Source: Proteiniphilum saccharofermentans (lineage in GTDB: Bacteria; Bacteroidota; Bacteroidia; Bacteroidales; Dysgonomonadaceae). Taken from it: a stretch of 64,000 bases of DNA. Of the stretch, positions 945-17,681 are shown piece by piece. The stretch is from contig NZ_LT605205.1 of NCBI RefSeq assembly GCF_900095135.1, positions 2,046,001 through 2,110,000 of the forward strand, written 5' to 3'. Each line of letters starts with the position of its first letter. The first letter of the stretch is position 1. The notes beneath the pieces were generated by a model. That model did not search any database. It worked only from the letters and a program-made list of their open reading frames with translations, and had not been told where the DNA came from. The translations under genes and the position numbers were made by a program.

Positions 945-1235
945 TTACTTGCGGCTTTTAATGGTGTTCAGCGTTTCTTCCAAGCCGCTTTTCAAAAATT
1001 TTAATTCTCCTAAGTCCGATAAGATAAATGCTTTGATAAATTCAATTTCTATTTCTTTCTCTTGCACTTGCAAAGTCTTAGCCAGTGTCGGCAGCATTTC
1101 TTTTGTCGCTGCACGTTCACTTCTTTCAATTTTGCTTAGAATGGAAGTGTCAATGTCGAGTTCGGCTGCAACTTTCCTTAATGGAAGTCCCAGTTGTTCT
1201 CGCCTGTTTCTCAAATATTCTCCAAAAGAATTCAT
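945..1235 (-). CDS. XRE-family HTH regulator
   Basis: A 96-residue protein whose residues 5-60 form a Cro/C1-type helix-turn-helix (LRNRREQLGLPLRKVAAELD followed by the TSILSKIERSER recognition region). The C-terminal 35 residues are a charged helical tail. It is the first gene of a two-gene unit with the PLD-helicase that starts three bases downstream. Small XRE proteins placed directly before restriction or helicase genes commonly act as timing or autoregulatory repressors; that role is inferred. The 230 bp upstream on the minus strand hold a palindromic attC-like element. Confidence 0.85.
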   Translation of the reverse strand: MNSFGEYLRNRREQLGLPLRKVAAELDIDTSILSKIERSERAATKEMLPTLAKTLQVQEKEIEIEFIKAFILSDLGELKFLKSGLEETLNTIKSRK

Positions 1236-1366
1236 CTTGTCGTATTTGTTTGGACTAATTCGTCAAAAGTACGATTTTTTTTTAAAGTTGTCGTCCGTGC
1301 GGTGGGGAAAATTACTCACGTTACTTCTATTATTTTATTGGTGTTCGTGAATCGCTTCGCTTATTT

Positions 1367-1441
1367 CAAGCTCTTTTGGTTTTGCGAAGGGTCGGCTTTG
1401 TGTGTCGGGCAAAACCAAATGTGCTTGAATGTGCGTTGGCT
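1367..1441 (-). other. Degenerate attC-like palindrome
   Basis: Two 19-base arms, CAAGCTCTTTTGGTTTTGC at 1367-1385 and GCAAAACCAAATGTGCTTG at 1409-1427, are inverted repeats matching at 16 of 19 positions. A GTTGGCT box at 1435-1441 (AGCCAAC on the minus strand) would be the R'' box, but no convincing R' box is seen near 1340-1360. It lies only about 17 bp from the complete palindrome at 1458-1588, leaving no room for a gene between them. Most likely a decayed cassette end. Confidence 0.55.
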
Positions 1442-1457
1442 GTCTTTTTACACTGAG

Positions 1458-1588
1458 CGATAACGGATGGCGGTATGGTTAGTTGCCGATTTCGAAGCTC
1501 TTTCCTATCAAGTTACAACTACTTTTGATACGGGCTGTGCCGCTCGAATACGCACTGCCCCGGCAATTAACTATACCGCGTGTTAGCG
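1458..1588 (-). other. attC-like recombination site 1
   Basis: A 131-bp imperfect palindrome. On the minus strand it starts with R'' CGCTAAC (1588-1582) and ends with R' GTTATCG (1464-1458). Inner arms gcggtatggttagttgccg (1470-1488) and cggcaattaactataccgc (1561-1579) pair at 17 of 19 positions, with both mismatches being G/A changes that allow G-T pairing on one strand. It resembles site 4 at 9423-9551 in arms and in part of its loop. It closes the cassette holding the CRP, oxidoreductase and DUF4405 genes. Size and layout match integron attC sites. Confidence 0.75.
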
Positions 1589-1619
1589 GCTGCCATTTTT
1601 TCCTACCAAAAATAATCAA

Positions 1620-2096
1620 TTATTCCATTATCAAATCAAATAATTTTTTGGGGTTTACTTTATTGTTAATCCAGATTTCTTCCATCGACGCCCCTTCTAT
1701 AAAGGAAATTCCGTTTGCTTCCAGCCTTTTGACAACTACAATAGAATCAACCTGTAATACTTTTAGAACATCCTCAATTGGAGCATTAGTTATTCTTTCA
1801 ATAAGGATGGTGTCAAATTTTGGACTCTTTTGTTGCTGAATGACTAATAAAATTGATATAACAGCAACAACTATTGTCGATAGAATAAAAACACGCTTTT
1901 TGAAATGAATTTTCAAGGCTTTCCAGTTGAGTATGACATGTAATACTGAAAACACGACAAAGAAAACACCCAGAATTTCATGTACAACCTCTGTATATCC
2001 ATCAAATATATGAAAAAACATTAGTAAACCTGAGAGGGCAACAGCTAGGAAAATTATAGTTATTAATGGGGTGATAAAACTTCTGCTCAACTTCAT
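1620..2096 (-). CDS. DUF4405-like membrane protein
   Basis: A 158-residue protein with three hydrophobic helices (about residues 8-28, 38-57 and 69-87) followed by a soluble C-terminal domain of about 70 residues. Helix 2 contains the HEILGVFF...LHVILNW pattern with two histidines, typical of DUF4405 proteins related to cytochrome b561-like heme-binding membrane domains. Heme binding is therefore possible but unproven. It starts 12 bp after the flavodoxin-fold oxidoreductase gene, suggesting a shared redox task. It is the last gene before attC-like site 1. Confidence 0.7.
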   Translation of the reverse strand: MKLSRSFITPLITIIFLAVALSGLLMFFHIFDGYTEVVHEILGVFFVVFSVLHVILNWKALKIHFKKRVFILSTIVVAVISILLVIQQQKSPKFDTILIERITNAPIEDVLKVLQVDSIVVVKRLEANGISFIEGASMEEIWINNKVNPKKLFDLIME

Positions 2097-2108
2097 AATA
2101 CATCTTAT

Positions 2109-2699
2109 TTAATTGAATGACGAAAATCGTGTTTCAAGGTTGCTAAGCCAATTTTTCCTTTTATCTTGACTTACAGATTTAACAGAAGTAAAACTAATCC
2201 ATTTCAGTCGCTTATATCCCATTGTCTTAAAAACGCTTCGTAACATCACTTTTCTAATCAAATTACCTATTAGTAAGGAATACATTATTTGGGGCTTATT
2301 CATTGTAGTGATAATTGTTACACTTCTCATTTTTTTTAAAAGTGGCACTAAGCCGAAGCCTCGGGGATGATGGTCATATACCACGCCAGGGAATAGTACA
2401 CGGTCTATAAAACCTTTGGTAGTTGCAGGCATAATATCCCACCAAATAGGAAAAATGAAAATTAAGTGGTCAGCTTTTTTTAAACGCTCGTTGTAATCAA
2501 TTACCTGTGGGTCGATGGGTTGATGTGCAACGAAAGCTTGTAAGTCGTATTGTGTCATTACGGGATTAAACCTGTCATTGTCAAGGTGCATAAGATCCAC
2601 TTCGTGACCAGCCTTTTGAAGTCCTTTTGTTACTGCGTTTAGGATTGCGTTGCAATAACTTCCCTCGTAGGGATGATTGAATACTATTACGGTTCTCAT
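2109..2699 (-). CDS. NAD(P)H-dependent oxidoreductase, flavodoxin-2 fold
   Basis: A 196-residue flavoprotein of the NQO1/KefF/MdaB family. The N-terminal VIVFNHPYEGSY segment is the FMN/FAD phosphate loop, and the IFIFPIWWDIMPATTKGFIDR segment at about residues 82-102 is the family signature for the flavin edge and dimer interface. Such enzymes reduce quinones or other electrophiles with NAD(P)H in the cytosol. It lies between a CRP-type regulator (76 bp upstream) and a DUF4405 membrane protein, a small redox unit that fits a stress-response cargo. The substrate cannot be deduced. Confidence 0.85.
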   Translation of the reverse strand: MRTVIVFNHPYEGSYCNAILNAVTKGLQKAGHEVDLMHLDNDRFNPVMTQYDLQAFVAHQPIDPQVIDYNERLKKADHLIFIFPIWWDIMPATTKGFIDRVLFPGVVYDHHPRGFGLVPLLKKMRSVTIITTMNKPQIMYSLLIGNLIRKVMLRSVFKTMGYKRLKWISFTSVKSVSQDKRKNWLSNLETRFSSFN

Positions 2700-2775
2700 C
2701 TTTTACTGTTTAAATTTAGTGCAAAGTTAAGAAGTTGTAAACCATTGAACGATAACAATTGTAAAGAAATGAGTT

Positions 2776-3318
2776 TTATTGTCTGTTTCGTATTCTGCTT
2801 AGTGAAACAGGTGTAATGCCTAAATAGGAAGCAATATAATGTTGCGGAACTCGCTGAATAATAAGAGGATGTTGTTTTATTAACTCTTCGTATCGTTTTT
2901 TTGGTTTGTTTTTTAGAAATGAATGTAAAAGTTGTTGAGATTGAAAAAGCCGTCTGAATAAGTGGTCTTCTAATTTCTTTCTTAATTCAGGGGAACTCTC
3001 CAAAATAATCTGAAAATCCTTTTGTGATAAAGTTTTTAAAATACAAGGTTCTAAACTTTCGATACTGTATAAACTCGGTTGATTTGTCCTAAAACTCTCA
3101 ATTGAAGAAACCCCGTCTCCTTCGAAGAAAAATTGAGTTGTAATTTCTTTACCGTCATTATTTATCCAAGTCCGCAAACAACCTTTTTCAATAAAAAACA
3201 TTGTTTTTGAGATTTGTCCTTCATGTAGAAGGATAGTCTTGGCTGGAATTTCCTGCTCTTTAAAGAAATGGTTGAATTCTTTCAATTCATTCAATATTAT
3301 AGTCGTCAATTTCTTCAT
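2776..3318 (-). CDS. Crp/Fnr-family transcriptional regulator
   Basis: A 180-residue regulator with an N-terminal cyclic-nucleotide-binding beta-barrel (about residues 10-115; FIEKGCLRTW and TTQFFFEGDGVSS are typical of the Bacteroidota group) and a C-terminal helix-turn-helix ending YIASYLGITPVSLSRIRNRQ. The C-terminus is short, as in many Bacteroidota members, which often lack the residues needed to bind cAMP. It is the first gene of the cassette, with the ATG 28 bp from the attC-like core at 3346, so it probably controls the oxidoreductase and DUF4405 genes after it. Confidence 0.87.
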   Translation of the reverse strand: MKKLTTIILNELKEFNHFFKEQEIPAKTILLHEGQISKTMFFIEKGCLRTWINNDGKEITTQFFFEGDGVSSIESFRTNQPSLYSIESLEPCILKTLSQKDFQIILESSPELRKKLEDHLFRRLFQSQQLLHSFLKNKPKKRYEELIKQHPLIIQRVPQHYIASYLGITPVSLSRIRNRQ

Positions 3319-3339
3319 CGCACGGTTCTTTATGGTTGC

Positions 3340-3467
3340 CGCAAACGAGTGGGCGCTTGGCGACAGGGCGGGGTTTCACAAATGTTCGCGCGGGCGCAAA
3401 ACTTTCAAATTCCGACAAAACTTTCTGCGGGCGTACACCCCGCCTTGCGCCAAACCGCTTGTTGTGC
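3340..3467 (-). other. attC-like recombination site 5
   Basis: A GC-rich 128-bp imperfect palindrome. On the minus strand R'' is GCACAAC (3467-3461) and R' is GTTTGCG (3346-3340). Inner arms around ggcgacagggcggggt (3359-3374) and acaccccgccttgcgcc (3435-3451) pair. The core that follows R' (GTTTGCGGC) is complementary at 8 of 9 positions to the R'' region of site 1 (GCCGCTAAC), as expected for the two ends of one cassette. Its boxes fit the consensus less well than those of sites 1-4. A 62-codon minus-strand ORF covering it is incidental. Confidence 0.6.
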
Positions 3468-3745
3468 GCTGGCATTTTGTTTATTGTTTGTTAATTTAAT
3501 CCTTCGGATAAGAACTTTTCATTCTATTTCAGATATTTGCTATGTTCGAATAAAGGAAATTCACCAGAAAATTTTATTTTTGCTAAAATTTTTAGTTGAA
3601 GCCCTTGATTTTAGATTGTAAATATGTCCATTTATATTGGGTATTTCCATAACAATACATTCTTCTACATAATTCAATATGTATTTATCATCAAACGATT
3701 GTGGTTTAATCGCAATATTGGAAAAATGTAATCAGTAACTTCGCA
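3468..3745. other. AT-rich gap, no gene seen
   Basis: 278 bp between attC-like site 5 and the left end of the IS21 element. It should hold the 3' part of the ParB/Srx-domain gene cut by the insertion. On the minus strand next to the IS there is only a 23-codon open stretch ending in TGA, and it does not continue the frame of the interrupted gene. I see no other coding signal, so this flank is probably decayed or partly deleted. Confidence 0.5.
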
Positions 3746-3856
3746 TGTACAATTTTCGGCAAGATTGAATGTACAGAAATTGGCAATATGCAATGTACAT
3801 AAAAAGGGTTAAAGAAGAGTCTTCATATATTTGTAATTCACGAAAATACAAACACT

Positions 3857-5333
3857 ATGAAGACTCAGATACATGACCTTAGAAAGGTACGTATGTGGTA
3901 CGAAGTTAAAGAACTTTCCAGTAATCCGGGCAATTCGGATAGTAAAATTGCAAAAAAGTTGGGTATTGATCGCAGAACAGTTTCCAGGTACAAGAAGATG
4001 AGTGAAGATGAGTTTCATGAGTTTTCAATGAAACAACGTGTATACGAACTTGTTTTGTCGCCATATTACCCGGACGTTCTTTCCTTATTGAGTATAGACA
4101 ATGGTTTGCCGGCGGCAGTGATAGAAGACCGGCTGAAGGAGAAATACGCCGACTTGCCGAAGGTGAACAGCAAGACTGTATACAACTTTGTCCAGCACGT
4201 GCGGCGTCAGGAGAAGATCCCTGTACCGGAGAAGATCCGCCAGACGGAAGCCCTGGAAGAGTTTGCATATGGCAGCCAGGCGCAGGTTGACTTCGGTACA
4301 GCACAGATGCGACGTTTGGACGGCAGTAGGCGCAGGGTTTATTTTTTTGCCCTTGTCCTGTCACGCAGTCGCTACAAATATGTGTTTTTCCAAACAACTC
4401 CCTTCACCGGGAAAACAGCCGTCCAGGCTCACGAGCAGGCCTTCAAGTATATAGAGGGTATCCCCGGGAAGCTTCTCTATGATCAGGACTCGGTGTTTCT
4501 GAAAAGTGAGAACCTTGGCGATTATCTCCTGGCTGATGATTTTCGTCGCTACAGGGATGAACGCGGTATCAGCGTTGAGTTCTGCCGCAAGGCCGATCCC
4601 CAGAGCAAAGGCCGGGTCGAGAACGTGGTAGGATACGTGAAAAACAACTTTCTTCGCGCGCGTACCTTTCACGATATAGATCGCCTCAACGAGGAAGTCC
4701 TGAGCTGGTTGGAGCGCAAGGCGAACGGCACCAAACATGCCACGACGAAGCGCCTGCCCCATGACGTGTGGTTGATTGAAAAGGAGCATCTCTCCTTTTT
4801 TCGCCCCTCACCGGCAATCCCCCGGGATGAGATTCCCACCTACACGGTGAGAAAAGATAACACAATCAGTTACAAGGGGAACTTCTACAGGGTCCCATAT
4901 GGCACCTATAACGGGAAGGGACCGGAGGTATTACTCAAGGTCAAGGATGGCACCCTTTCGCTTTCCAACCGGCAAGGCATCCTTCTGGCCGAGCACCCCG
5001 TCAGTCTTGAAAAAGGCAAGGTAAGAGGAGATACACAAGTATAAGCCCCGTTATCTGAGAGACAATCTGAAAATGATAAGGGAGGTGATGGGCGAATATG
5101 GTGAGGAGATCGTTGGCAGTGCACTTGATTACTGCCTCGACAATGGGCTCTACAACGCCCTTTACCTGAAAGAAGCCGCATCACATTACCGGGAGTTAAA
5201 ACGCCGGGAGAAGAAGCCCTTGCCTGTTGTAAGCGTGTTGCATGACGGTGTTCAAACAAGTCAGTATGACACGGATGCATACATCCCCGAGAGAAGCAAG
5301 ATAAACCGGTACGATCAAATCATGGAGCTATGA
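3857..5333 (+). pseudogene. istA: IS21 transposase IstA, frameshifted
   Basis: Two ORFs in different frames together encode a full IstA. The first (3857-5044) has an N-terminal helix-turn-helix (KIAKKLGIDRRTVSRY, about residues 35-50) and the DDE catalytic core: D in QAQVDFGTAQ, D in LLYDQDSVF and E in GRVENVVGYVK. It ends early at TAA 5042-5044. The second frame resumes at about 5037 (HKYKPRYLRDNLKMIREV) and runs to TGA 5331-5333, overlapping the istB start. One extra base near 5034-5038 explains the split. No slippery A6/A7 heptamer is present, so I favour an inactivating frameshift over programmed frameshifting; a sequencing error is also possible. Confidence 0.85.
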
Positions 5334-6082
5334 AGCAGATAGAAAACATGAAGCAATATGCCGGCATACTTCGTTTGGGATACCTGAGCAAAAACTTGCA
5401 GCCGATGCTTCACCAGGCGAGCATAGATACACCGGGATACGCGGACTTCCTGGAGAACATGCTTATAAAAGAGCTAGAGCAGCGACAGCTGAATGATTAC
5501 CGGCGCAGGACTAAACTGGCCCGTCTGCCACGTGCACACGAGCTTGACGAGTACGATTACAAGGCCTCGAGCAGCATCGGCATAAGGCAGATGACACAGC
5601 TCAGGGAGCTGCTCTGGGTCGATCAGCTATACAACCTGGTGCTGATGGGGCCAAGCGGTACGGGCAAAACATACCTGGCCGGGGGACTGGTCAATGATGC
5701 CATCAAGAAAGGTTATAGGGCCTATTTTACCACCATGGCTGACCTGATAGGCGTGCTCAACAGGAAAGAAATCATCTCATCGGCAATGAGCACCTACAAG
5801 CGATACACCAAGGCACACCTGATTGCCATAGATGACATCATGATGTTCCCGGTGCAAAAGAGTGAAGCGGTGGCTCTGTTCAATCTGATCAATCACCTGC
5901 ATGAGCAGTGCTCGATCATCATCACCACTAACAAGTCACCCAGCCAGTGGGCGGAGACACTGGATGATGAAGTGTTAGCCACAGCCATCCTGGATCGACT
6001 GCTATATCGTTGCGAGGTGATCAGGTTCGAGGGAAACGGTTACCGTATGGACAACCGGAAAACTTTCCTTGAGAAAGAATAA
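5330..6082 (+). CDS. istB: IS21 helper ATPase IstB
   Basis: A 250-residue AAA+ ATPase that assists IstA in target selection. The Walker A motif is GPSGTGKTYLA (about residues 105-115), Walker B is LIAIDDIMMF, and sensor 1 is SIIITTNKS. The start overlaps the istA stop as ATGA, typical of translational coupling in this family. The gene looks intact. With istA frameshifted, the element could move only if a functional IstA is supplied elsewhere. Confidence 0.93.
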   Translation: MKQIENMKQYAGILRLGYLSKNLQPMLHQASIDTPGYADFLENMLIKELEQRQLNDYRRRTKLARLPRAHELDEYDYKASSSIGIRQMTQLRELLWVDQLYNLVLMGPSGTGKTYLAGGLVNDAIKKGYRAYFTTMADLIGVLNRKEIISSAMSTYKRYTKAHLIAIDDIMMFPVQKSEAVALFNLINHLHEQCSIIITTNKSPSQWAETLDDEVLATAILDRLLYRCEVIRFEGNGYRMDNRKTFLEKE

Positions 6083-6163
6083 AAAAACAGTTGAATACAA
6101 TAAAAAAGAGATAGTTAATGTAATGTTAAACCTGTACATTGGATATTGCCAAAAGTTGTACAC

Positions 6164-6655
6164 TCAACATTGCCATTTTTTGTACATTGTAAATTTGCTA
6201 ATTACAAGCCAATTAACTTGATTATTTCCTTTTGCATGTTTTCTGTCAATATAACGATAACACTGGTCTTTATCTTCTGATACTAAGCAATCAAGTAAAA
6301 ATCCACTATCTATATTTACAACAGCTTTTTTTTCAATAAGAAATGAATGAAGTTTCTTATCAATATCTTGTACAATTTCAGGATTAACTAATAATTTATA
6401 TCCTGCCAGCCTTCTGTTACCCTCTAAAACGATTAACTTATCAGATGTATCCCAAACTACAACTTTCTCTAAATGTGGCAGGTCAATGTCATTTGCAATT
6501 TCTTCTATAAATTCTTTAATCTTGAAGTTTGGTTTGGATAGAAAGTATCTTATAAGTTCTTTCTCATCGGAATTATAATATTGGTCTGGAAACCGAGCAT
6601 TTTCATCCCAAAGGAATAATTTATCAATCGGTATCTTTTTTTCTACAAACTTCAT
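6164..6655 (-). pseudogene. ParB/Srx-domain protein truncated by IS21
   Basis: The open frame encodes 163 residues, but only about the first 156 (down to 6187) are original; the last seven (MYKKWQC) come from the IS end. The ParB/sulfiredoxin-like nucleotide-binding motif is clear at about residues 77-88 (VLEGNRRLAGYK), preceded by an IPIDKL...DENARFP entry segment typical of ParB N-terminal domains. Full-length proteins of this kind are usually longer and carry an extra C-terminal domain, which is lost here. ParB-fold proteins in mobile or defence islands can be DNA-binding proteins or nucleases; the role here is unknown. It begins 55 bp after the attC-like core at 6710-6716. Confidence 0.75.
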
Positions 6656-6709
6656 ATTAATTCTGTTTTTATATGTTCATTTTATAACGAGATGTTCCGA
6701 AAAAATTAC

Positions 6710-6841
6710 CGCCAACGGATGGAACTATATGCAGTTGGGGATTGCGGGTTGCTTTCCTGTCGAACCCCGATGCCGTTGTTGCGGGCTGCGAACTTTATTG
6801 TCCGCACCGAAACCCCAATTGACATATAGTTTTTGTTAGCG
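6710..6841 (-). other. attC-like recombination site 2
   Basis: A 132-bp imperfect palindrome with R'' CGCTAAC (6841-6835) and R' GTTGGCG (6716-6710) on the minus strand. Inner arms aactatatgcagttgggg (6723-6740) and ccccaattgacatatagtt (6813-6831) pair along their length, but one arm has an extra base. Unpaired extrahelical bases of this sort set strand choice in classical attC sites. The stop codon of the upstream UDG-fold gene lies inside the R'' box, so gene and site are tightly packed. Confidence 0.8.
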
Positions 6842-7624
6842 TTTCGTTGTTTTTTTCTTTATCCAAGCGTCATGTAAATTTCCCCATTTGTCAGTTGAAC
6901 TTCCCAACCTGTCTGCCTGTCTTGGATGACAAAGAGGAATTACATTATAAATTTTGTCGTTTATTTTAATCTCATGCTGTCCACCATAAGTATTTTCACT
7001 CTCACCAAATTGCGCTAATCTAGAAAAGCGATTGTCATAGAAACGCAGAAACCAATAAATAGGCAAATCTCCTAATAATATTAAGTTTTCGGCTTGCGAA
7101 GTTTCAAGTTCTTCTAATATCTCATCTCGTCTGGATTTAGAATTTAACTCCGATTTGTCAAAGTCTGGAATTGAAGCTTTAGAAAGTCCGTACTCACTTA
7201 TGATGCTGTCAGAATAGTGTTTGTTGATGGCATTTCGCTGATGTTCGTTAACTCTTGATTCAGGAAGCAAGTCGCATAGCCACGAAGTGTTTCTATCTAG
7301 TCCAAGCGGTTCTAAAAACAGATTGTCAAGTGCCCTACCTGATGGACCATTTAATCTTTTGTCTTTTGGAATTGTCAGTTGACCTAATTGCTCTGGAACC
7401 CATATTTTTGAAATAATTTCTTCAGCATAATTTCCTGTCCAAAATATTTCGGGTTCACTTGCTACTGCTAAAGCTGATACTTTTTGCTTACCGTCTTTGT
7501 CTAACCAACGGGCATGAACAGCACTGGCATAAACTCCCAAAACAAAAGCTTTTTTGGGAGTTTTGTCCTTTTGCTCAACTTTTTTGAGTTCTTGTCCAAA
7601 TGGGAAATTGTAAGTTTTATTCAT
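6836..7624 (-). CDS. Uracil-DNA-glycosylase-fold protein
   Basis: A 262-residue protein with the landmarks of the UDG superfamily: VLGVYASAVHARW at about residues 28-40 in the place of the catalytic-water loop, LNGPSGRALDNLFL at about 90, an acidic segment before LILLGDLPIYWFL at about 182-194, and VIPLCHPRQADRLG at about 228-241 matching the HPS DNA-intercalation motif. The match is remote, so base specificity cannot be stated and it could be a repair or a nucleic-acid-modification enzyme. It is the only gene of its cassette (6716-7652). The start ATG is 28 bp from the upstream core, and the stop is embedded in the downstream R'' box. Confidence 0.68.
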   Translation of the reverse strand: MNKTYNFPFGQELKKVEQKDKTPKKAFVLGVYASAVHARWLDKDGKQKVSALAVASEPEIFWTGNYAEEIISKIWVPEQLGQLTIPKDKRLNGPSGRALDNLFLEPLGLDRNTSWLCDLLPESRVNEHQRNAINKHYSDSIISEYGLSKASIPDFDKSELNSKSRRDEILEELETSQAENLILLGDLPIYWFLRFYDNRFSRLAQFGESENTYGGQHEIKINDKIYNVIPLCHPRQADRLGSSTDKWGNLHDAWIKKKTTKR

Positions 7625-7646
7625 GCTGTCGTCTTTTTACAATGAA

Positions 7647-7778
7647 CGCTAACGGTCTCGGCTAAGAAACGTAGGGCGTTTCAAAGCGATTTACTGTCCA
7701 CCGGAACCGTAGCTTGCTAAATGCATAAGCCCTTCGGAAACCCTTGTCTGCCCTATGTTTTCTTAGCCAATGTTGGCA
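7647..7778 (-). other. attC-like recombination site 3
   Basis: A 132-bp imperfect palindrome with R'' TGCCAAC (7778-7772) and R' GTTAGCG (7653-7647) on the minus strand. Arms ggctaagaaacgtagggc (7660-7677) and gccctatgttttcttagcc (7750-7768) pair with one extra base on one side. The ten bases opening the next cassette after R' are nearly the complement of that cassette's own R'' region at site 2 (AACGCTAAC shared). Confidence 0.82.
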
Positions 7779-7788
7779 GCAGTACTTT

Positions 7789-7977
7789 TTATTTTCCGCA
7801 ACAAGGGCAATTGTTATCACTTGTTGGTCCCAAACTCTTGCTTAGATTTTCAACCAAAGGCTTTCTACTTCCAAATTCTTCCTTTTCGAATTTTTCGATA
7901 AACTCTCTTACTTCCTTACGTTCAGAATATCCAAGCTCGGAATATCCCTTGATTACTTTAAATGTCTTTTTGTCCAT
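7789..7977 (-). CDS. Small protein with C-terminal CPCC motif
   Basis: A 62-residue, charged, helical protein ending NNCPCCGK, a likely metal-binding cysteine cluster. I do not recognise a named family. It follows the CxxC membrane protein gene by 5 bp, so it belongs to the same three-gene unit, and its stop lies 10 bp from the attC-like site. The start ATG at 7977 is supported by this tight spacing. It might be a partner or regulator of the membrane protein, which also ends in cysteine pairs; that is inference. Confidence 0.6.
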   Translation of the reverse strand: MDKKTFKVIKGYSELGYSERKEVREFIEKFEKEEFGSRKPLVENLSKSLGPTSDNNCPCCGK

Positions 7978-7982
7978 TTTGA

Positions 7983-8582
7983 TTATTTTAAGTTATACCA
8001 TTTAAATTGCCCGCAAATGTCGCAGTCCGTGGATTTCATTGATTTAGGGACTTCTTCACAACCGTAACACTCTCGTTTAAATTCTCTTAGTGCATATCGC
8101 ATTCCTTTTCTTAATTCCCACTCCTTGAGGTAATGCTTAGAGTCTTGCTCTATTCTTGACTTATGTTTTGTGTTCTCAATGTTGTACTCTTTTTCAAGTT
8201 CATCGAATGTGCTGGGAGGGAACTGTCCCAATTTTTTAAAGTTGTCCGCTAAAACGCTGTATTGCTGAGAAGCTTCAATTGAATAAGCAAATTCATCATC
8301 CCATTTAAAAACTACTGCAAAAACTGAGATAATTAACTGGGCAATCGTCAATGGTACGGCTAAAGAAATTGCTAAAGCTAAATAATCCGAGTTATACCCA
8401 TAGGCGAGAGCAGTTCCACCAATTGCTGTTGGGACAACAATTCCTGAAGCTTTCAATAGGTTTACCCACCTCCCATATTTCTTAGATCTGTTGTCAAAAA
8501 TGTAGCCTTTGCCGAACGTATGTAAAGCACCATTCCAGCATTCTTGTCTTAGTTTGTCTATTTTTTGTTGTTCTGTCTCCAT
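7983..8582 (-). CDS. SLATT-like mobilome CxxCx(11)CxxC membrane protein
   Basis: A 199-residue protein with two adjacent transmembrane helices (about residues 42-63 and 66-92), a following amphipathic helical region, and cysteines C172, C175, C187 and C190 in a CxxC-x11-CxxC pattern at the C-terminus. Two close helices plus helical tails are the SLATT layout, a class proposed to form pores in nucleotide-signalled immunity; the cysteine spacing matches a family known from mobile elements. It sits 41 bp after a PLD nuclease gene and 5 bp before a small CPCC protein gene. A defence role is plausible but not shown. Confidence 0.72.
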   Translation of the reverse strand: METEQQKIDKLRQECWNGALHTFGKGYIFDNRSKKYGRWVNLLKASGIVVPTAIGGTALAYGYNSDYLALAISLAVPLTIAQLIISVFAVVFKWDDEFAYSIEASQQYSVLADNFKKLGQFPPSTFDELEKEYNIENTKHKSRIEQDSKHYLKEWELRKGMRYALREFKRECYGCEEVPKSMKSTDCDICGQFKWYNLK

Positions 8583-8623
8583 TCGCTATGTATTCCTGCT
8601 AATTAAACCTGGTGAGGAATTTT

Positions 8624-9397
8624 TTACTTCGTTAATCTCCTATATTCTATTGAATACTTAGTTGCTTGTTTTGGATCGTTCTCAACGGTTATATTTTCAT
8701 CATTTCGAAATTCAGCATTATCAGACCAGTTATAAGAACCTGTAATTACAATTTGATTGTCAACTACACAGAATTTATTATGCATTAGTCCGCCTCGTTG
8801 TCCTTTTTTTATTTTAACATGTGGTAATTGTGTAATATCCACCCCGTGTTTTTTGTTTATTCCGTCATAATAAATTGCAAGCTTCACATCAAGACCTTGT
8901 TGGTGTTTTTCAACCAATTTTTCAAATAGAACGTTATTTGTAAACCAAGCCATTACAACTATTATTGAAACTTCTGCGGCATCAAGAGCTTTTAATATTC
9001 TATTTTGAATATCTTGAAAATGAGCTTCATTAAATACTGGTTGTGCGTTATGAACTATTCCTCCCTGCACTTTTAGATTTCCGTTCAAATTTTCGATTCC
9101 AAAGCTTTCTGGATCAAGTATTTCAGTCAAATTGTCCACTATTTCAGGATTGTCATTCACAACTTTATTCAATAGTTCTCTTAAATTGTTGCTGTCATTT
9201 AGCTCAGACAATCTCTTTTTAACATATTCTGTTTTTGATGGTCTCTGTCCATTTCTTTTTCCTATATCTGGTAATCCTAGTTCATCGTAAATATCCCTTA
9301 TTCCATAATTATTGAATAGGTTCACAATCTCTCGCCCGGTTAAGTTACTTACAATGAATGGAGCTATTTTTTCAATAGCGTAAGGTGATATTTTCAT
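8624..9397 (-). CDS. PLD-family nuclease with helical N-terminal domain
   Basis: A 257-residue protein. Residues 1-90 are all-helical and resemble small N-terminal modules of bacterial immunity effectors (TGREIVNLFNNYGIRD). Residues 115-255 are a single phospholipase-D domain with the HKD motif in the MHNKFCVVDNQ...GSYNW segment (about residues 205-224), the form found in dimeric Nuc-like endonucleases. There is no signal peptide, so it should act in the cytosol on nucleic acid. It is the first gene of a three-gene cassette whose core lies 31 bp upstream of the ATG. Confidence 0.8.
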   Translation of the reverse strand: MKISPYAIEKIAPFIVSNLTGREIVNLFNNYGIRDIYDELGLPDIGKRNGQRPSKTEYVKKRLSELNDSNNLRELLNKVVNDNPEIVDNLTEILDPESFGIENLNGNLKVQGGIVHNAQPVFNEAHFQDIQNRILKALDAAEVSIIVVMAWFTNNVLFEKLVEKHQQGLDVKLAIYYDGINKKHGVDITQLPHVKIKKGQRGGLMHNKFCVVDNQIVITGSYNWSDNAEFRNDENITVENDPKQATKYSIEYRRLTK

Positions 9398-9422
9398 TTA
9401 GTTACTTCTTTTTTCATATTGC

Positions 9423-9551
9423 TGCCAACGTTGGCGGTATGAAAAGTTGCCGATTGCGGGCGATTACCTATCAAGCTACACAAAAGTTGAAGCGGGCTAC
9501 AACCCTTGAATAACCTACTGTCCCGGCAATTTTTTATACCGCGTGTTAGGG
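9423..9551 (-). other. attC-like recombination site 4
   Basis: A 129-bp imperfect palindrome with R'' CCCTAAC (9551-9545) and R' GTTGGCA (9429-9423) on the minus strand. Arms gcggtatgaaaagttgccg (9434-9452) and cggcaattttttataccgc (9524-9542) pair at 17 of 19 positions. It is closely related to site 1, sharing the gcggtat...gttgccg arm and a cctatcaag loop segment. The ten bases after its R' (GTTGGCAGCA) are the exact complement of the R'' region of site 3. Confidence 0.83.
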
Positions 9552-9559
9552 CACGTAAT

Positions 9560-11116
9560 TTATTCATTTTTAATCATTTCACTCAAATCAATTGTTACAA
9601 AACTCTTGTCTTGTGTGTCATATAAAGTATTACCAATCAGGAAGGCATTTGAGGTCGCATCAATTTCAGCAATTCTTTGTCCAGTATTATTAATAACCAA
9701 AGTCTTTTTATCTTTTGCAATAAACTTAAAATTCTTTGTTCTCAAATAATAAATACTTAAATCATCGTATTCTATTGTTTTTGAAATATTTAATTCGCTG
9801 TCAATGGATAATGTTTTACCTTGACTTGTAAAAACAAATACTTTGGTGGAATCAGATTGTGGAAGACTCATTAAATCTCCATTTTGATTTGTAATAAATA
9901 CTTGATTACCTACAAAATATTTTAGTTCTCCAACATTGTCTTTCGGAAAGTCTTTTTCAGCAATCAAATTCCCAGTTTCCATTGAATACTTTGAAATTCT
10001 GTTTTTAAATACTAAAAAGATTTCTCTGTTTTGTATCTGATAACTGAGAATAGGGTCGTCTTTTACATTTATTAATGATAAGTATTTCTGTTTACCAGTC
10101 TGTCTATCAAATGCCGCAAAGAAGGGCTTACCAAAATCTAATTGTCTGTAACCCATAAATGCCATTCCCTTATTAATCATAAATATTACGCTATCATTCA
10201 TGAAGATAGAAGATTTACTTGCTAAGTCGTTTGAAAATGGGAACTTCCATATTGTTTCACCTGATTGTTTGTCGATTTTTACAAGTTGTTCTTTTGAAGC
10301 CAAATATATACTGGAACTGTCAGTTATAGTATTAGATACCAAATCTCTTACTAAATCATGTCCAGTAGACATAACGAATGTGCCTGTAAGCAAACCTAAA
10401 CCAACTCCAACCGCATTTGCAGCAGCTGTTCCTGTGTAATCTTTTTTTCCTGTAATCGTGTTGTAATCCCAGCCTTTTCCCGTTTTTATATCTATTGAAT
10501 GTAATCCAGCAGCAACAACAATCATTGTTGAATCATTTGTGTAAAAAACATCATTCCAACCATATTCTCTATTTAAATCTCTTTTCCAAAGTACATTGCC
10601 ATTTTTTAAATCAATTCCTTCAAGTTCATTGGAATATCCAGTTGAGCTTTTGAATTTGTATCCGATGCCAATATTATCAATTGGGTCAACAAAGTATATG
10701 TTGTTTTTAACTTCCCAAAGTTCATTTCCAGTAATAATATCAAGACAATAACTTTTATTAGCAACGGTATAAATCATTGTGTTACTGAATTGCTGTAGAT
10801 TGCTTGACTGGTAAGCAATCTTTTTACTCCATAATACTTTTTGATTTTTAATGTCATATTGGATAATATTTCCAGTATTGCTAAGCCATTTTTCTTTTCT
10901 AAGTCCACGCAATTGAACAGTTAAAAATCCATTTGTTGTATCAATAAATGTTTCATGAATTCTTTCAGGAAATACGTATTCTAAACCTTTTATTTCAGAG
11001 CTATCGATAAGGCTTTTGCCTAATGTTTTCTCATTACTCAATACATTAATTTGATTCTTTTGGCTAAATCCAGTTAGCGAAATTAAAAGTAAAAGTCCTA
11101 ATACTATTTTTCTCAT
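9560..11116 (-). CDS. Exported PQQ-type beta-propeller protein
   Basis: A 518-residue protein with a clear N-terminal signal peptide (MRKIVLGLLLLISLTGFSQ). The body is built of repeated blades with the aromatic signature seen in PQQ-like quinoprotein/BamB propellers: VLWSKK, NELWEV, VLWKRD and ETIWKF, each about 40-50 residues apart. A glycine/alanine-rich stretch (about 226-240) interrupts the blades. Such propellers are periplasmic or outer-membrane-facing protein scaffolds; no PQQ-binding or catalytic residue can be named. It is the first cassette gene beside the recombinase, its ATG about 48 bp downstream of the presumed promoter and core site. Confidence 0.75.
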   Translation of the reverse strand: MRKIVLGLLLLISLTGFSQKNQINVLSNEKTLGKSLIDSSEIKGLEYVFPERIHETFIDTTNGFLTVQLRGLRKEKWLSNTGNIIQYDIKNQKVLWSKKIAYQSSNLQQFSNTMIYTVANKSYCLDIITGNELWEVKNNIYFVDPIDNIGIGYKFKSSTGYSNELEGIDLKNGNVLWKRDLNREYGWNDVFYTNDSTMIVVAAGLHSIDIKTGKGWDYNTITGKKDYTGTAAANAVGVGLGLLTGTFVMSTGHDLVRDLVSNTITDSSSIYLASKEQLVKIDKQSGETIWKFPFSNDLASKSSIFMNDSVIFMINKGMAFMGYRQLDFGKPFFAAFDRQTGKQKYLSLINVKDDPILSYQIQNREIFLVFKNRISKYSMETGNLIAEKDFPKDNVGELKYFVGNQVFITNQNGDLMSLPQSDSTKVFVFTSQGKTLSIDSELNISKTIEYDDLSIYYLRTKNFKFIAKDKKTLVINNTGQRIAEIDATSNAFLIGNTLYDTQDKSFVTIDLSEMIKNE

Positions 11117-11159
11117 ATTTATTCAGTTAAATGCTGTCGGTTTCTTTTTCTATTATGTG

Positions 11160-11183
11160 CCCTAACGCACAAATATACGCAAT
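11160..11183 (-). other. attI-like primary recombination site
   Basis: On the minus strand the core GTTAGGG (11166-11160) is preceded by an AT-rich block, GCGTATATTTGTGC, of a 21-bp sequence that recurs at 13008-13028. The two copies are identical up to GTTA and then differ, as expected if the recombinase-side half is fixed and cassettes are inserted at G^TT. There is no long palindrome on the recombinase side, unlike the attC-like sites. The GTTAGGGCAC core region is the exact complement of the R'' region of site 4, marking 9429-11165 as one cassette. Confidence 0.7.
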
Positions 11184-11198
11184 AATATTAAAAAACAA
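11171..11198 (-). promoter_or_regulatory. Probable cassette promoter inside the attI-like site
   Basis: TATATTTG (11178-11171) matches the Bacteroidota sigma-A -7 box TAnnTTTG and points into the array. A TTG lies at 11198-11196, giving a 17-nt spacer, two shorter than usual. Transcription would start near the GTTAGGG core, about 45 bp before the first cassette ATG. This is the position expected for an integron cassette promoter. Confidence 0.5.
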
Positions 11199-11354
11199 TC
11201 ATTTGTTTCAATAAAAATTAAAATAAGTCATACCTCTATGTGAATCAGTTGATTGAAAACAGATATTTTGTTGCGTATTTCGAATTATTATACTATCTTT
11301 CGACTCCAAAAGAGGTTTGAGAGTACATATTTAACATATCTGAAATACGCAGTT

Positions 11355-12428
11355 ATGGATTTTAGAGATAAAAGATATCATTTTGAGCCGGGTGAATATA
11401 ATGGCAAGCGGGTGATTTGGATTAGGTTCGAAAAAGACAACCAACTTATTTCCTATCTGCGCAATCATACAAAAGCAAGATGGTCAGCATCGGAGAAATC
11501 ATGGTATATTACCGATAACCGATATTATCGTGAGTTGTTTGGTTTGAAGCCGGTGATTGCCGGTAAAGAAGTCCTGAGAAAAATTCATGCTAAAAACCTA
11601 CCAGCTCTAAAACGGTTTCAGGAACAGATAATACTGAAAGGGTACAGCGAAAATACGCTTCGAACCTATACGCTGGAATTTGCTCAATTGCTGTACATCC
11701 TTAAATCGTATCCGGTTGATGAGCTTACTCCTGATCGGTTACGTGGTTATTTTCTTTATTGCCACCGGACGCTGAAGTTGTCGGAAAGTGAAATCCATAG
11801 CCGTATCAACGCAATAAAATTCTACTATGAACAAGTGTTACACCGTGAGAAAATGTTCTTTGATATTCCACGTCCCAAAAAACCGCAGACACTTCCAAAA
11901 ATGCTCAATAAGAAGGAAGTGCAAAAAATTATTGAAGTTACCCAAAATCCGAAACATAGACTGATGTTGAAACTTGCTTATGGTATGGGATTACGTGTCA
12001 GCGAACTGGTCAGCCTGAAAATTTCGGATATCGACAGTACCGCCATGTTAGTCCGTATAGAACAGGGTAAAGGAAAAAAAGACCGTGTAGTTCCCCTCCC
12101 GGAATCAGTACGACTTGAAGATATGCGAAGTTATTACAAGGACTATCGTCCTAAAATATATCTCTTCGAAGGACAGCATGAAGGGCAATATTCCATCCGG
12201 AGTGCCCAACAAGTTTTTAAATCGGGATTAAAAAAGGCTGGAATCAAAAAACAAATCGGCATACATGGGCTGCGCCACAGTTATGCCACACACCTGTTGG
12301 AAACCGGTACTGATATACGTTTTATCAAGGATTTGCTTGGGCACCAATCCGTTAAAACGACCGAAATCTATACACACGTTACCGATCTGTCGAAGTCAAA
12401 AATAAAAAGTCCGCTCGATTCCTTGTAA
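11355..12428 (+). CDS. Tyrosine recombinase, XerC/D-integron-integrase type
   Basis: A 357-residue recombinase from the ATG at 11355; a TTG-initiated extension to 11253 is open but less likely. An N-terminal domain with RWSASEKSWYI (about 44-54) is followed by a SAM-like core-binding domain (about 85-175) and a catalytic domain with R214 (GMGLRVSEL), K239 (GKGKKDR), H304-x-x-R307 (HGLRHS), H330 (LLGH) and the Y339 nucleophile (EIYTHV). It ends KSPLDSL, very like integron integrases. The gap between the lysine and HxxR motifs is only about 60 residues, as in XerD, so the extra helix of classical IntI is absent. It is divergent from the cassettes, with the attI-like site between them. Confidence 0.93.
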   Translation: MDFRDKRYHFEPGEYNGKRVIWIRFEKDNQLISYLRNHTKARWSASEKSWYITDNRYYRELFGLKPVIAGKEVLRKIHAKNLPALKRFQEQIILKGYSENTLRTYTLEFAQLLYILKSYPVDELTPDRLRGYFLYCHRTLKLSESEIHSRINAIKFYYEQVLHREKMFFDIPRPKKPQTLPKMLNKKEVQKIIEVTQNPKHRLMLKLAYGMGLRVSELVSLKISDIDSTAMLVRIEQGKGKKDRVVPLPESVRLEDMRSYYKDYRPKIYLFEGQHEGQYSIRSAQQVFKSGLKKAGIKKQIGIHGLRHSYATHLLETGTDIRFIKDLLGHQSVKTTEIYTHVTDLSKSKIKSPLDSL

Positions 12429-12434
12429 GAATAT

Positions 12435-12564
12435 TTATAGCGGAATAAGCCAGGCTGCATAAATATGGCTTGCCAGACCGAGTAACACAAACAGATGAAA
12501 AACGGTATGGACAAATTCCTTTTTTGCCGTGGTAAAGATACAAAAAAATCGATGGCATGACGCC
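12435..12564 (-). pseudogene. Hemolysin III-like C-terminal remnant
   Basis: On the minus strand two frames together read VMPSIFLYLYHGKK and then EFVHTVFHLFVLLGLASHIY, ending AAWLIPL and a stop at 12435. The His-rich HTVFHLFVLLG...H pattern resembles the last helices of hemolysin III/YqfA (PAQR-like) proteins. The frame changes in a run of A/T bases near 12525-12530, and nothing recognisable remains upstream. A decayed gene beside the recombinase is the simplest reading. Confidence 0.45.
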
Positions 12565-12613
12565 AAGTAGTCATACTCAAAATAATTACCAAGCATAATA
12601 CTATTTTTCCTGC

Positions 12614-12651
12614 AACTCCAAAACTTTATTCCACATATGGAGTTATTTTTT
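12614..12651 (+). terminator. Possible terminator after the recombinase gene
   Basis: AACTCCA (12614-12620) and TGGAGTT (12638-12644) form a 7-bp stem followed by ATTTTTT. It lies about 190 bp after the recombinase stop codon. Confidence 0.4.
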
Positions 12652-12724
12652 AAACTTATCATTTTTTTTGTTTTTCTCTGCTCTAACGGCTTCGCAGATT
12701 TTGCCCTCATTATCTTCATCTACT

Positions 12725-12922
12725 TTATCTGCTGCCCGGTTGATTTAGTCCGTCTGTATTTAAATCGTTTTGTTCTTTAGCTTTTCCCCAAAGTTCTTCA
12801 TCTGTAAGATTGGTCTCGACCAATTCAATGGGCATTCCTCCATCGTTTATAATGGCAACTTCATATCCTTCAATGGGCTCGTAAGGACCTAAAAGGGTTT
12901 CCTGACCTTGAATTGCTGTCAT
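12725..12922 (-). CDS. Small hypothetical protein, possible cassette relic
   Basis: A 65-residue acidic ORF (core PIEGYEVAIINDGGMPIELV) with no family I recognise. It starts 86 bp inside the second attI-like site (13008-13028), in the same position relative to that site as the beta-propeller gene has to the first, so it may be the remaining gene of an old cassette. No attC-like palindrome closes it; a lone CTCTAAC box at 12681-12687 is the only hint. It may be noncoding. Confidence 0.4.
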   Translation of the reverse strand: MTAIQGQETLLGPYEPIEGYEVAIINDGGMPIELVETNLTDEELWGKAKEQNDLNTDGLNQPGSR

Positions 12923-13007
12923 TAGATTTTCGACCTTGAAAGCAATGTGCGGATTATTTTTAGGTCGGGTGGCGAGGGAATTGCGATAGTTATGTTACCA
13001 TTGCCGG

Positions 13008-13028
13008 TAACGCACAAATATACGCAAT
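13008..13028 (-). other. Second copy of the attI-like 21-bp site
   Basis: This block is identical to 11163-11183, including the TATATTTG -7-like box, and on the minus strand runs into GTTACCGG instead of GTTAGGGC. The core forms a short palindrome GTTACC-ATTGCC-GGTAAC (12995-13011 region). An inverted repeat ATTCTAT/ATAGAAT follows at 13027-13042. It implies a duplicated or earlier integration platform on the far side of the recombinase. Confidence 0.65.
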
Positions 13029-13067
13029 TCTATGAATAGAATATTTGAAAATTGCAATATAAATTAA

Positions 13068-13177
13068 GATGATCCGTAAATACTCCTAAATGTCTGTTTT
13101 TTTATGTGAATCCAGCTTGCGTTAGGTTTGCAAATGTAATGACCATATTATGTGAATCTGACGTTTTACGGATGATC
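13068..13177. repeat. 110-bp element bounded by 13-bp inverted repeats
   Basis: GATGATCCGTAAA (13068-13080) and TTTACGGATGATC (13165-13177) are inverted repeats with one mismatch. Inside are two direct copies of TATGTGAATC (13103 and 13149; a third lies upstream of the recombinase at 11237) and a GTTAGGT core-like box at 13121-13127. It could be a small non-autonomous element or part of a decayed recombination site. Confidence 0.45.
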
Positions 13178-13224
13178 ATTCAATTAAAATAAGTCTCCCT
13201 CGTTTTGAGACAGTTGATTCCTAC

Positions 13225-13262
13225 AAGACAACCGCGAAATCTATACACATGTGAGTGACCGA
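13225..13262 (+). pseudogene. Remnant of a second tyrosine recombinase C-terminus
   Basis: AAG ACA ACC, two extra bases, then GAA ATC TAT ACA CAT GTG reads KTT/EIYTHV, matching the nucleophile-tyrosine region KTTEIYTHV of the intact recombinase, also at DNA level (gaaatctatacaca identical). The following codons do not reach an SPLDSL-like end and the upstream part is gone. It supports an earlier or duplicated recombinase locus. Confidence 0.55.
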
Positions 13263-13463
13263 TCAGAAAATTCCTGCCAAAAAGTCAGATACTATGCTTT
13301 GGCAAAGATTTTGACCGATTGGTGTTGTGCATTCAGGCGTGAGTATACTTTCTAATACTCATAGTCTTGAATGGCTCCATTGTAAGAACTTTGTCTCTTG
13401 ACGTTTGTTTTTAATATAGTCCGGAGCACTTGCATGACACGATTTGAAGAAAGGAGAAAATAT

Positions 13464-16052: not shown

Positions 16053-16103
16053 ATTGTAAAGTGGAAAGGTGGAAAGGATATGCAATGTGCTAATGTGATG
16101 ATG

Positions 16104-16134
16104 TGGTAATTAGTAATTAGTAATTAGTAATTGG
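16104..16134. repeat. 7-bp TAATTAG tandem repeat
   Basis: Four consecutive TAATTAG-type units in the gap between convergent clpB and trkH. The same array is found in opposite orientation at 45733-45762. Confidence 0.7.
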
Positions 16135-16152
16135 AAATTCGAAATTGAAGTT

Positions 16153-17619
16153 TCACCTTTTCCAGAATCCGGGGATGAACAACGAGAGTACGGTAAATAT
16201 CTCAAGGCGCCCCACCAGCATAAGGAAACAGAGATAATATTTCATGAAAGGCGTCGCTGATTCGAACGTGCCGCTGGGCCCGTAAGAGCCTAATCCGAAG
16301 CCGTAGTTGCTGATGGACGAAAGGGAAACACCGATTGATTCTTCGAAATTCATCCCCGTAAGACCCAATATTACGGCACTAACCACCGTGAGGGTGACAT
16401 ACAGGAAGACAAAGGCGAATAGCCGTGACAGGGTTTCACCAGTGATCACTTTCCGATTCATCTTCACCACATAAAGTGCGTTGGGATGTACCTGGCGCTT
16501 GAAAACCAACAGTGCATTTTTGGAAAGCACTATCAAGCGCGAGATTTTCATCCCGCCCGAAGTGGACCCTTCACTGCCACAGAAGAGGATCATCGTGAGG
16601 AAAAGAAGCCAGTAGCCGGAACCCCACAACTGGAAATCAGTTGTGGCAAATCCTGTGGTGGTGATTGCCGCCACGACCTGGAAAAGCACTATCCGGAAAG
16701 TTTGTTCTGTATCGTTCATCCGTCCTGAGGCCAAAAGAGCCACTGTGATCCCCAAGGTGAAAAGGACGGTAATCAACAGATACCATTTGAACTCTTCATC
16801 CCTGAAGATAGTGGCCTTGAACCGGGTGACAAGTACCGATATGAGAAGGAAATTGGTAGCACCCAAGAACATAAGCAGGGTGATCACATATTCTGTATAG
16901 GGAGAATTGAAAAAGGCGATGCTTGTCTGCTTGGTGGAAAAGCCCCCTGTGGAAATGGCTGTGAGTGTATGGCAAGCTGCATCGAACGCATCCATCGGGC
17001 CTGCCCAAAGAAAGAAAAATCCAAGGATCGTAAGGCCGAGATAAGTAAGTGCCATCTGTTTGGTAATCTCTCTGATGCGGGGACGGAACTGGTCTTCGGC
17101 TATACCGGTGGCTTCCGCCTCATAGAACTGGCTTGAGATTCCTCCGAAAATAGGCATAAACGAGAGGACGAAGATGATGATCCCGATCCCTCCGATCCAT
17201 TGCGTGAAACTGCGCCAGAAATGGAGTGATTTGGGAAATGCTTCAATATTGACCAGGGTAGAACTGCCGGTAGTGGTGAAACCACACATGCTCTCAAAAA
17301 ATGCGTTTGTAAAAGAGGGAATGGCGCCGCTGAACAAGTAAGGGAATGTGCCGAACAGCGTCATCATCAACCATGAGAGCGTGACGGTAAAGAAAACTTC
17401 CCGTTTGGTAAGGTTACCCGCTGCACGCTTCCGTTTTCTTCCCAGAAATGAGAGAAGCACTCCGGAACCGAAGCTAGCGAGTGCCGAAAGATAAATACTC
17501 CTTACGGCCGTTTCGTTGTAATACTCACCTACGAATGCGGAAAAGAGCATGAAGATCGCTTCAATTATCAGGAGCAGACCTATGGTATTCAATACAAACT
17601 GATAGTTAAATCTCTGCAT
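16153..17619 (-). CDS. trkH: Potassium uptake protein TrkH
   Basis: A K+-translocating membrane subunit of about 488 residues, with many hydrophobic helices and selectivity-filter loops such as CGFTTTGSSTL (about residues 112-122 from this start), ISTGGFSTKQTS and ITTTGFATTDF, each with the key glycine. It works with cytosolic TrkA, whose gene lies immediately upstream. I place the start at ATG 17619 (MQRFNYQFVLNTIG) because family members begin here; in-frame starts further up (to 17679, two bases from the trkA stop) would add up to 20 residues. Confidence 0.95.
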   Translation of the reverse strand: MQRFNYQFVLNTIGLLLIIEAIFMLFSAFVGEYYNETAVRSIYLSALASFGSGVLLSFLGRKRKRAAGNLTKREVFFTVTLSWLMMTLFGTFPYLFSGAIPSFTNAFFESMCGFTTTGSSTLVNIEAFPKSLHFWRSFTQWIGGIGIIIFVLSFMPIFGGISSQFYEAEATGIAEDQFRPRIREITKQMALTYLGLTILGFFFLWAGPMDAFDAACHTLTAISTGGFSTKQTSIAFFNSPYTEYVITLLMFLGATNFLLISVLVTRFKATIFRDEEFKWYLLITVLFTLGITVALLASGRMNDTEQTFRIVLFQVVAAITTTGFATTDFQLWGSGYWLLFLTMILFCGSEGSTSGGMKISRLIVLSKNALLVFKRQVHPNALYVVKMNRKVITGETLSRLFAFVFLYVTLTVVSAVILGLTGMNFEESIGVSLSSISNYGFGLGSYGPSGTFESATPFMKYYLCFLMLVGRLEIFTVLSLFIPGFWKR

Positions 17620-17681
17620 GCGTCGTAGTTTGTCCGGAGGCATATGCATGTACGGTATGCAAAATCTGCCCTGGCACAAAT

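Follow-up and report, generated by a model that had tools for sequence, protein, structure and literature searches.

Can gene cassettes be gathered in the manner of an integron beside a recombinase that is not an integron integrase? The question is raised by a 64,000-nt stretch of Proteiniphilum saccharofermentans (GCF_900095135.1, NZ_LT605205.1, positions 2,046,001-2,110,000 of the forward strand), here called the window (W), in which a tyrosine recombinase gene stands at the head of a row of minus-strand genes separated by five palindromes. An earlier note, made from the DNA letters alone, had described it as an integron-like cassette array with a XerD-like integrase. Comparison of the window with other loci (labelled L###) and sampled genomes (G###) supports integron architecture with a recombinase that is not IntI, on the grounds of an attI-like site, a complementarity rule that ties each cassette's start to its own end, and different cassettes behind nearly identical platforms. 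We put at about 0.87 the probability that the locus is a gene-cassette system of integron architecture, in which a platform adjoins tandem cassettes, each with a G|TT core at its start and a long imperfect hairpin site at its end. Judged by sequence, it is an integron-like system; it does not count as an IntI integron, since the I2 insertion that defines such a recombinase was absent when tested.

Terminal sites and the box rule

The platform and cassettes are laid out below; "box" gives the match between a cassette's start and its own terminal site.

11355 to 12428, plus strand: tyrosine recombinase, 357 amino acids, divergent from the array (domain and profile searches, alignment, structure model)
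11161 to 11194, minus strand: attI-like site, TTGCGTATATTTGTGC followed directly by GTT; the cassettes start at 11165 on the minus strand, predicted start matched at 9/9
9429 to 11165, minus strand: cassette 1, PQQ/BamB-like protein (open reading frame 9560-11116); box 9/9, from the attI-side start to the first site
9421 to 9552, minus strand: attC-like site S1 (palindrome scan, alignment, covariance model 101.4 bits)
7653 to 9428, minus strand: cassette 2, PLD-like nuclease (8624-9397) and mobilome CxxC protein TIGR04402 (7983-8582); box 7/7
7645 to 7779, minus strand: attC-like site S2 (palindrome scan, covariance model 87.0 bits)
6716 to 7652, minus strand: cassette 3, 262-amino-acid protein (6836-7624) with no NCBIfam or Pfam match; box 6/7
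6708 to 6842, minus strand: attC-like site S3 (palindrome scan, covariance model 88.2 bits)
3346 to 6715, minus strand: cassette 4, disrupted by an insertion sequence, with the N-terminal part (6164-6655) of a PD-Lambda-5_A-like gene; box 2/7
3338 to 3468, minus strand: attC-like site S4 (palindrome scan, covariance model 66.3 bits)
1464 to 3345, minus strand: cassette 5, Crp-like regulator (2776-3318), NAD(P)H oxidoreductase/flavodoxin-fold protein (2109-2699) and DUF4405 protein (1620-2096); box 5/7
1456 to 1589, minus strand: attC-like site S5, the end of the intact array (palindrome scan, covariance model 106.1 bits)

A purpose-written scan for AAC-stem-GTT palindromes across the whole 64 kb returned these five sites as its top five, with scores of 14.5-17, against 12.5 for the next best candidate and 13.5 for the best in three dinucleotide shuffles. 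The palindromes between minus-strand genes and the divergent recombinase at the array head were thus present as first described. Measured from box to box, however, the palindromes span 131-135 bp rather than 128-132 bp, and the array extends over 1456-11165 rather than 945-12428: the helix-turn-helix gene at 945-1235 lies outside the last intact site and is a candidate cassette, not a demonstrated one. Just past S5, at 1340-1455, the next cassette start is followed by an imperfect palindrome (arms 1365-1385 and 1409-1429), and this region is probably a truncated cassette.

A covariance model was trained on 39 sites from 15 sources, the window's five included. Searched against the 4.41 Mb genome at E <= 0.01, it gave seven matches (150 of 566 candidates scored): the five sites plus a weaker pair around 4.0985 Mb. 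These two members of the same family lie far from the array, at G000:C1:4098463-4098790 (L229 8464-8791). No Rfam family matched the window sites at its threshold. The region of S3 (6704-6856) is 94% identical over 153 bp to L032 4214-4366, and the DNA around it has no match there.

The units were tested for a rule of complementarity, in which the bases after the GTT of a cassette start are complementary to the bases before the AAC (the R'' box) of that cassette's own terminal site. The rule was scored over 7 variable bases in 79 adjacent pairs from 24 loci, after single-site loci and unreadable boxes had been dropped. Matches at 6 or 7 of 7 bases were found in 61/79 adjacent pairs and in 16/376 mismatched pairs from within the same loci, so that the complementarity claimed earlier holds beyond chance. 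Summed over all pairs, 443/553 bases matched, compared with a shuffled mean of 201 (standard deviation 11.5), and none of 20,000 shuffles reached as high a value. Arrays found through the covariance search alone (seven stretches in five genomes, three partial matches dropped) gave 48/56 against 19/412 for mismatched pairs. A circular form of the unit, in which the two halves meet, would be expected to show such complementarity. The 109 box-matched cassettes have a median length of 871 bp, and the longest open reading frame runs in the cassette direction in 102 of them, in the opposite direction in 3, and is absent at 50 amino acids in 4.

Cassette 4 is the weak case in the window, as had been noted. 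The present unit is probably a fusion of two cassettes, which would account for its box match of 2/7. The gene fragment that it carries matches the defence protein PD-Lambda-5_A at 2.4e-20 (residues 5-146 on profile positions 4-147 of 466), and the interrupting element is the following.

3745 to 6187, plus strand: insertion sequence within cassette 4 (open reading frames 3857-5044 and 5330-6082; inverted ends 3745-3799 and 6133-6187)

By eye, this element appears IS21-like. A second genomic copy exists, since 3727-6207 recurs at 100% identity at 1446950-1449430.

Across the 39 sites, the consensus fold comprises 16 pairs, of which 15 show double changes and three take all four Watson-Crick types. 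The flanks AACA and CGTT are invariant, which places an A·C mismatch next to the core in 39/39 sites, and a second A·C mismatch within the stem is kept in 35/39. On the bottom strand both become G·T and can pair. The extra unpaired bases reported earlier for the inner arms are therefore mostly these conserved mismatches. The bottom strand had the more stable fold in 28/39 sites, compared with 41% of shuffles; the mean difference was -1.6 kcal/mol (Wilcoxon p 6e-4). Site orientation was uniform, with all listed matches on one strand in each of the 24 loci with at least two matches. A different size class was seen in L053 (Rufibacter), where an 11-site array (11585-18373) includes ten sites of about 70 bp, much shorter than the 135-bp class, and 8/10 adjacent pairs match at 6 or 7 of 7.

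The attI-like site and cassette exchange

For 30 loci (L040 was dropped as no AAC was found) we used the R'' box of the first site to predict where the first cassette starts, and searched for that start from 50 nt inside to 600 nt past the array-facing end of the recombinase gene. A start was found in 27/30 loci, 24 at 9/9 and 3 at 8/9, while control starts taken from other loci gave 2/864 at 9 of 9 and 57 at 8. The 30 loci are not all independent, as they include the close relatives W/L024/L025 and L036/L038/L039. The bases before the GTT contained TGCGT in 11/27 loci, the window family among them. In 21/30 loci the attI-like site lies 3' of the recombinase gene, so that gene and cassettes are codirectional; the other 9, including the window, are divergent.

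Near-identical platforms carried different cassettes. The platform of L024 (G092, another genus) is 99.6% identical to that of the window over 1,804 bp, that of L025 (G060) is 95.8% identical over 1,371 bp, and each has a different first cassette; in both, identity stops within the GTT box, with the letters GTTAG shared. The attI core of the window recurs in L024, L025 and L026, in front of different first cassettes. Likewise, on either side of the attI end of their array, G049 and G050 share more than 6 kb at 99.2% and 99.5% identity, yet G050 has two further cassettes between attI and the unit that adjoins attI in G049, and the change falls directly after GTT. The earlier note had suggested a search of relatives for different cassettes behind the same recombinase, and had held that gene order and spacers conserved by descent would count against cassettes; instead, the cassettes differ behind a shared attI. 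From these alignments, we judge that cassettes have been exchanged between platforms.

Cassettes of the window itself recur elsewhere. Nearly all of cassette 5 (1474-3346) is present at 91.8% identity in G004, which belongs to another genus. It follows immediately after an attI that resembles the one of L032 (80% identical over 207 nt). In this 6-kb stretch of G004 no recombinase gene was found, and a region matching both ends of the L032 platform is present. Cassette 3 occurs in G049, again another genus, at 97.3% identity over 848 bp, with identity from the GTT core onward; its copy there ends in a different palindrome, which the scan found and the covariance model missed. The two copies, L230 (G049, about 3334) and the window (6806), stay about 97% identical up to the AACA of R'', and then their terminal sites differ. 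It seems from this alignment that the terminal hairpin was swapped independently of the gene, which bears on how cassettes acquire sites.

A decayed second platform adjoins the first in the window, and the G004 platform (L228), with attI kept and the recombinase gone, is of a like kind.

13008 to 13260, plus strand: second-platform remnant, consisting of attI copy 2 and both ends of a recombinase gene, remains only (repeats D5, D13 and D16; sequence)

A second kind of tyrosine recombinase (283 amino acids) was also seen within array units, at L036 8464-9312 and at L038 5550-6398 and 11689-12537. It occurs twice in G049, once in the unit directly at attI.

The recombinase and its link to the sites

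The window recombinase consists of an N-terminal extension of about 78 amino acids, a core-binding domain, a catalytic domain and an IntI-like C-terminal tail (SPLDSL). Its six catalytic residues (R214, K239, H304, R307, H330 and Y339) occupy columns that are invariant in 13 sequences. Translation probably starts at ATG 11355 and not at TTG 11253, because in L024 and L025 the open frame has its first ATG at the corresponding codon. At 12111-12113 it has one extra residue (VRLED) relative to these two relatives (VLED).

The absence of the additional IntI helix, noted earlier from the sequence, was upheld. Where IntI4 (2a3v) has 74 residues (174-247), the window protein has 32 (253-284), so that an I2-type insertion is missing, and the structure model (predicted local distance difference test score, pLDDT, 82.8; predicted template modelling score, pTM, 0.52) has no long extra helix. 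In fold it came closest to XerA (5hxy) and to the integron integrase 2a3v. Between the catalytic lysine and the histidine of HxLR, the spacing taken by motif search is 65 in the window and 64-65 in most relatives, as against 106 in the 5 IntI-type proteins in which it could be measured (it was not measurable in 12 others; an erratic second search was discarded). In profile searches the protein scored 194.4 bits on TIGR02249, below the IntI cut-off of 265, and its best NCBIfam model was the XerA-type NF040815 at 208.4 bits, where 220 is needed.

The spacing is approximately XerD-like, as described earlier. The protein itself, however, is no XerD. It scored 178.3 and 175.0 bits with the XerD and XerC models, and the genome encodes a separate XerD at 343.9 bits (cut-off 329.6) and a XerC-like protein at 323.1 (cut-off 335.15). 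We built a tree of 107 rows by quick search with midpoint rooting, omitting L067, L094, recombinase reads shorter than 255 amino acids and every second reference IntI, XerC and XerD. In this tree a branch with 100% support separates XerC and XerD from the window recombinase, which, together with the separate host genes, places the protein outside XerC/XerD. Fifteen IntI proteins and one Allochromatium protein form a 100% clade with the window recombinase outside it. Since the branching order of the deep I2-less lineages was not resolved, I2 may have been lost or may never have been present.

The same kind of enzyme accompanies the same kind of site elsewhere. We collected 62 sources with recombinase relatives, of which only L069 and L070 come from outside Bacteroidota and the window's own family, and 34 of the 62 contained sites at E <= 0.01. 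These amount to 118 matches, 39 of which are the training sites, and 59/118 matches at I2-less loci score 60-127 bits. A further 38 sources, whose related recombinases come from other groups, yielded no site at E <= 0.01 and two at E <= 1. In the opposite direction, 16/18 array genomes chosen from 66 with sites encode such a recombinase at E <= 1e-35, and in at least 14 of those 16 a listed site is no more than 12 kb away from the gene; that of G212 is broken. In this genome (L250 8047-12928) the family recombinase stands in two pieces beside sites, with a partial IntI-like gene nearby. At E <= 1e-4, sites occur in 215/295 sampled genomes of the window's class and in 66/118 of the phylum sample, and in places many follow one another, as in G479, where 19.9 kb contains 11 matches. 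The idea of a class-specific system was dropped, as the phylum sample has sites outside the window's class.

Alternative explanations and relation to known integrons

How would such a system work? In the mechanism we propose, the recombinase would excise cassettes as circles through recombination between two sites, and circles would be inserted by recombination between attI and a site, between the G and the TT of GTT. Recognition would be of the folded shape of the bottom strand and not of its sequence. The conserved A·C of the top strand, G·T on the bottom strand, may aid strand choice in the way that extrahelical bases do in attC; we infer from their conservation that the mismatches could serve as strand marks. 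The N-terminal extension of this subfamily is a candidate substitute for I2, although several array-linked relatives of about 280 amino acids (for example L032 and L036) that have no such extension speak against this role.

Several points weigh against a cassette system of this kind. All of the evidence is comparative. The box rule is broken in 18/79 and 8/56 adjacent pairs, 11/39 sites show no bottom-strand preference, and for the window's own five sites the folding energy is only modestly lower than in shuffles (z -1.0 to -3.9). No site was found at E <= 0.01 in 28/62 recombinase sources; 19 of these 28 are named contigs, of which 17 have less than 1.6 kb 3' of the gene. Conversely, sites occur without a detected recombinase in 2/18 chosen genomes. 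G105 has a canonical IntI at a distance of 3.8 kb from such an array, though wrongly oriented for it, on the array's strand past the last site and not in the usual divergent position. Finally, I2 is described, in the part of PMC7790495 available to us, as necessary for cassette capture by IntI and as absent from other database proteins.

The alternative that fares best, which we still consider unlikely, is that the sites are ordinary double-stranded inverted-repeat recombination sites, with no folding involved and the hairpin incidental. Inverted repeats in duplex DNA are the usual binding sites of tyrosine recombinases, and the present enzyme has no I2 and resembles XerA most closely in fold. 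Moreover, the attI-like sites are not hairpins of the terminal-site kind, and the folding-energy bias between strands is modest. Against this, the long arms vary from site to site with their pairing kept (15/16 pairs double-changed), which argues against sequence-specific duplex binding because such binding should conserve letters, and the two mismatches are themselves conserved.

A second explanation, which appears quite improbable, holds that a canonical IntI, acting in trans or formerly present, built the arrays and that the neighbouring I2-less recombinase is a bystander. Canonical IntI does exist in the phylum, exceeding the TIGR02249 cut-off in 84/296 sampled genomes, with the G105 copy near an array. 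In ten canonical IntI loci of 16-19 kb each, the site model gave 11 weak matches in 3/10 loci, indicating that canonical and I2-less sites resemble each other. None of these matches exceeded 26.5 bits, however, compared with 60-127 bits for half of the matches at the I2-less loci. At E <= 1e-40 TIGR02249 matches nothing in the window genome, the window's class contributes only 3/89 of the TIGR02249-matching genomes, with one full-length match, and in 27/30 loci no more than 600 nt separate attI from the I2-less gene. As a control on the detector, plus-strand pairs at the ten canonical loci followed the box rule in 5/5 cases at L241 and in 1/2, 2/4, 1/3, 1/3, 0/0, 1/3, 0/2, 0/1 and 3/4 at the other nine; the fewer box-rule pairs at most canonical loci mean that the detector alone is unreliable there.

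That the palindromes are mobile or structural repeats between genes (of the repetitive extragenic palindromic, REP, or miniature inverted-repeat transposable element, MITE, kind, or terminators) with no recombination function is very improbable: the sites are indeed very common in the class (215/295 genomes), and certain genomes contain over 20 of them, but such repeats would not pair the start of a unit with the box at its far end, and neither a single orientation within each of the 24 multi-match loci nor identity breaks within the GTT box of near-identical genomes would be expected of them.

A cassette system with integron architecture thus being preferred, how does it compare with known systems? 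It shares with integrons a platform with a recombinase gene and attI, turnover at the attI end, an IntI-like C-terminal tail, one-directional cassettes, terminal palindromic sites with boxes of the RYYYAAC/GTTRRRY type, and an R'' complementary to the start of its own cassette. It differs from them in its recombinase (no IntI insertion, below the TIGR02249 cut-off, outside the IntI clade), in a strand asymmetry made of A·C mismatches rather than clear extrahelical bases, and in the position of attI 3' of the recombinase gene in 21/30 loci. With XerA, XerC and XerD it has in common the catalytic core and the short lysine-histidine spacing, XerA being the best fold match. Xer recombinases act at a single dif-like site, unlike the arrays of cassette sites and attI found here.

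In the literature, the accessible text of PMC8138268 describes an "integron-like" subgroup of simple tyrosine recombinases in which the IntI insertion is not fully conserved. Recombinases like that of the window may already be classified there, although in that text insertion-less members are given no Bacteroidota cassette arrays, attI or attC. Bacteroidota are listed among integron-bearing phyla in the portions seen of a study of archaeal integrons (PMC9668308) and a review (PMC8618304), as is the Bacteroidetes/Chlorobi group in those of an early integron survey (PMC2426708). IntegronFinder 2.0 (PMC9024848) covers Bacteroidetes integrons of the same phylum group, and its accessible part mentions nothing like these arrays; none of the 11 taxon-specific attC models is named for Bacteroidota in the accessible part of PMC8352920. 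In the literature within our scope, to which preprints and most subscription journals did not belong, we found no Bacteroidota cassette arrays with an insertion-less recombinase.

It may be, and here we lean neither way, that a second kind of integron is widespread in Bacteroidota, with recombinases that never had I2 or lost it, sites folded from single strands, and A·C/G·T pairs as strand marks. If this is true, I2 would be one solution to cassette recombination and not a requirement, and integrons would either predate the IntI clade or have arisen separately from it. Arrays that have attI, the box rule and turnover, but an enzyme without I2 and outside the IntI clade, make the origin of integrons testable. 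They also suggest a large cassette pool, with sites in 215/295 genomes of the class, that surveys dependent on IntI would miss.

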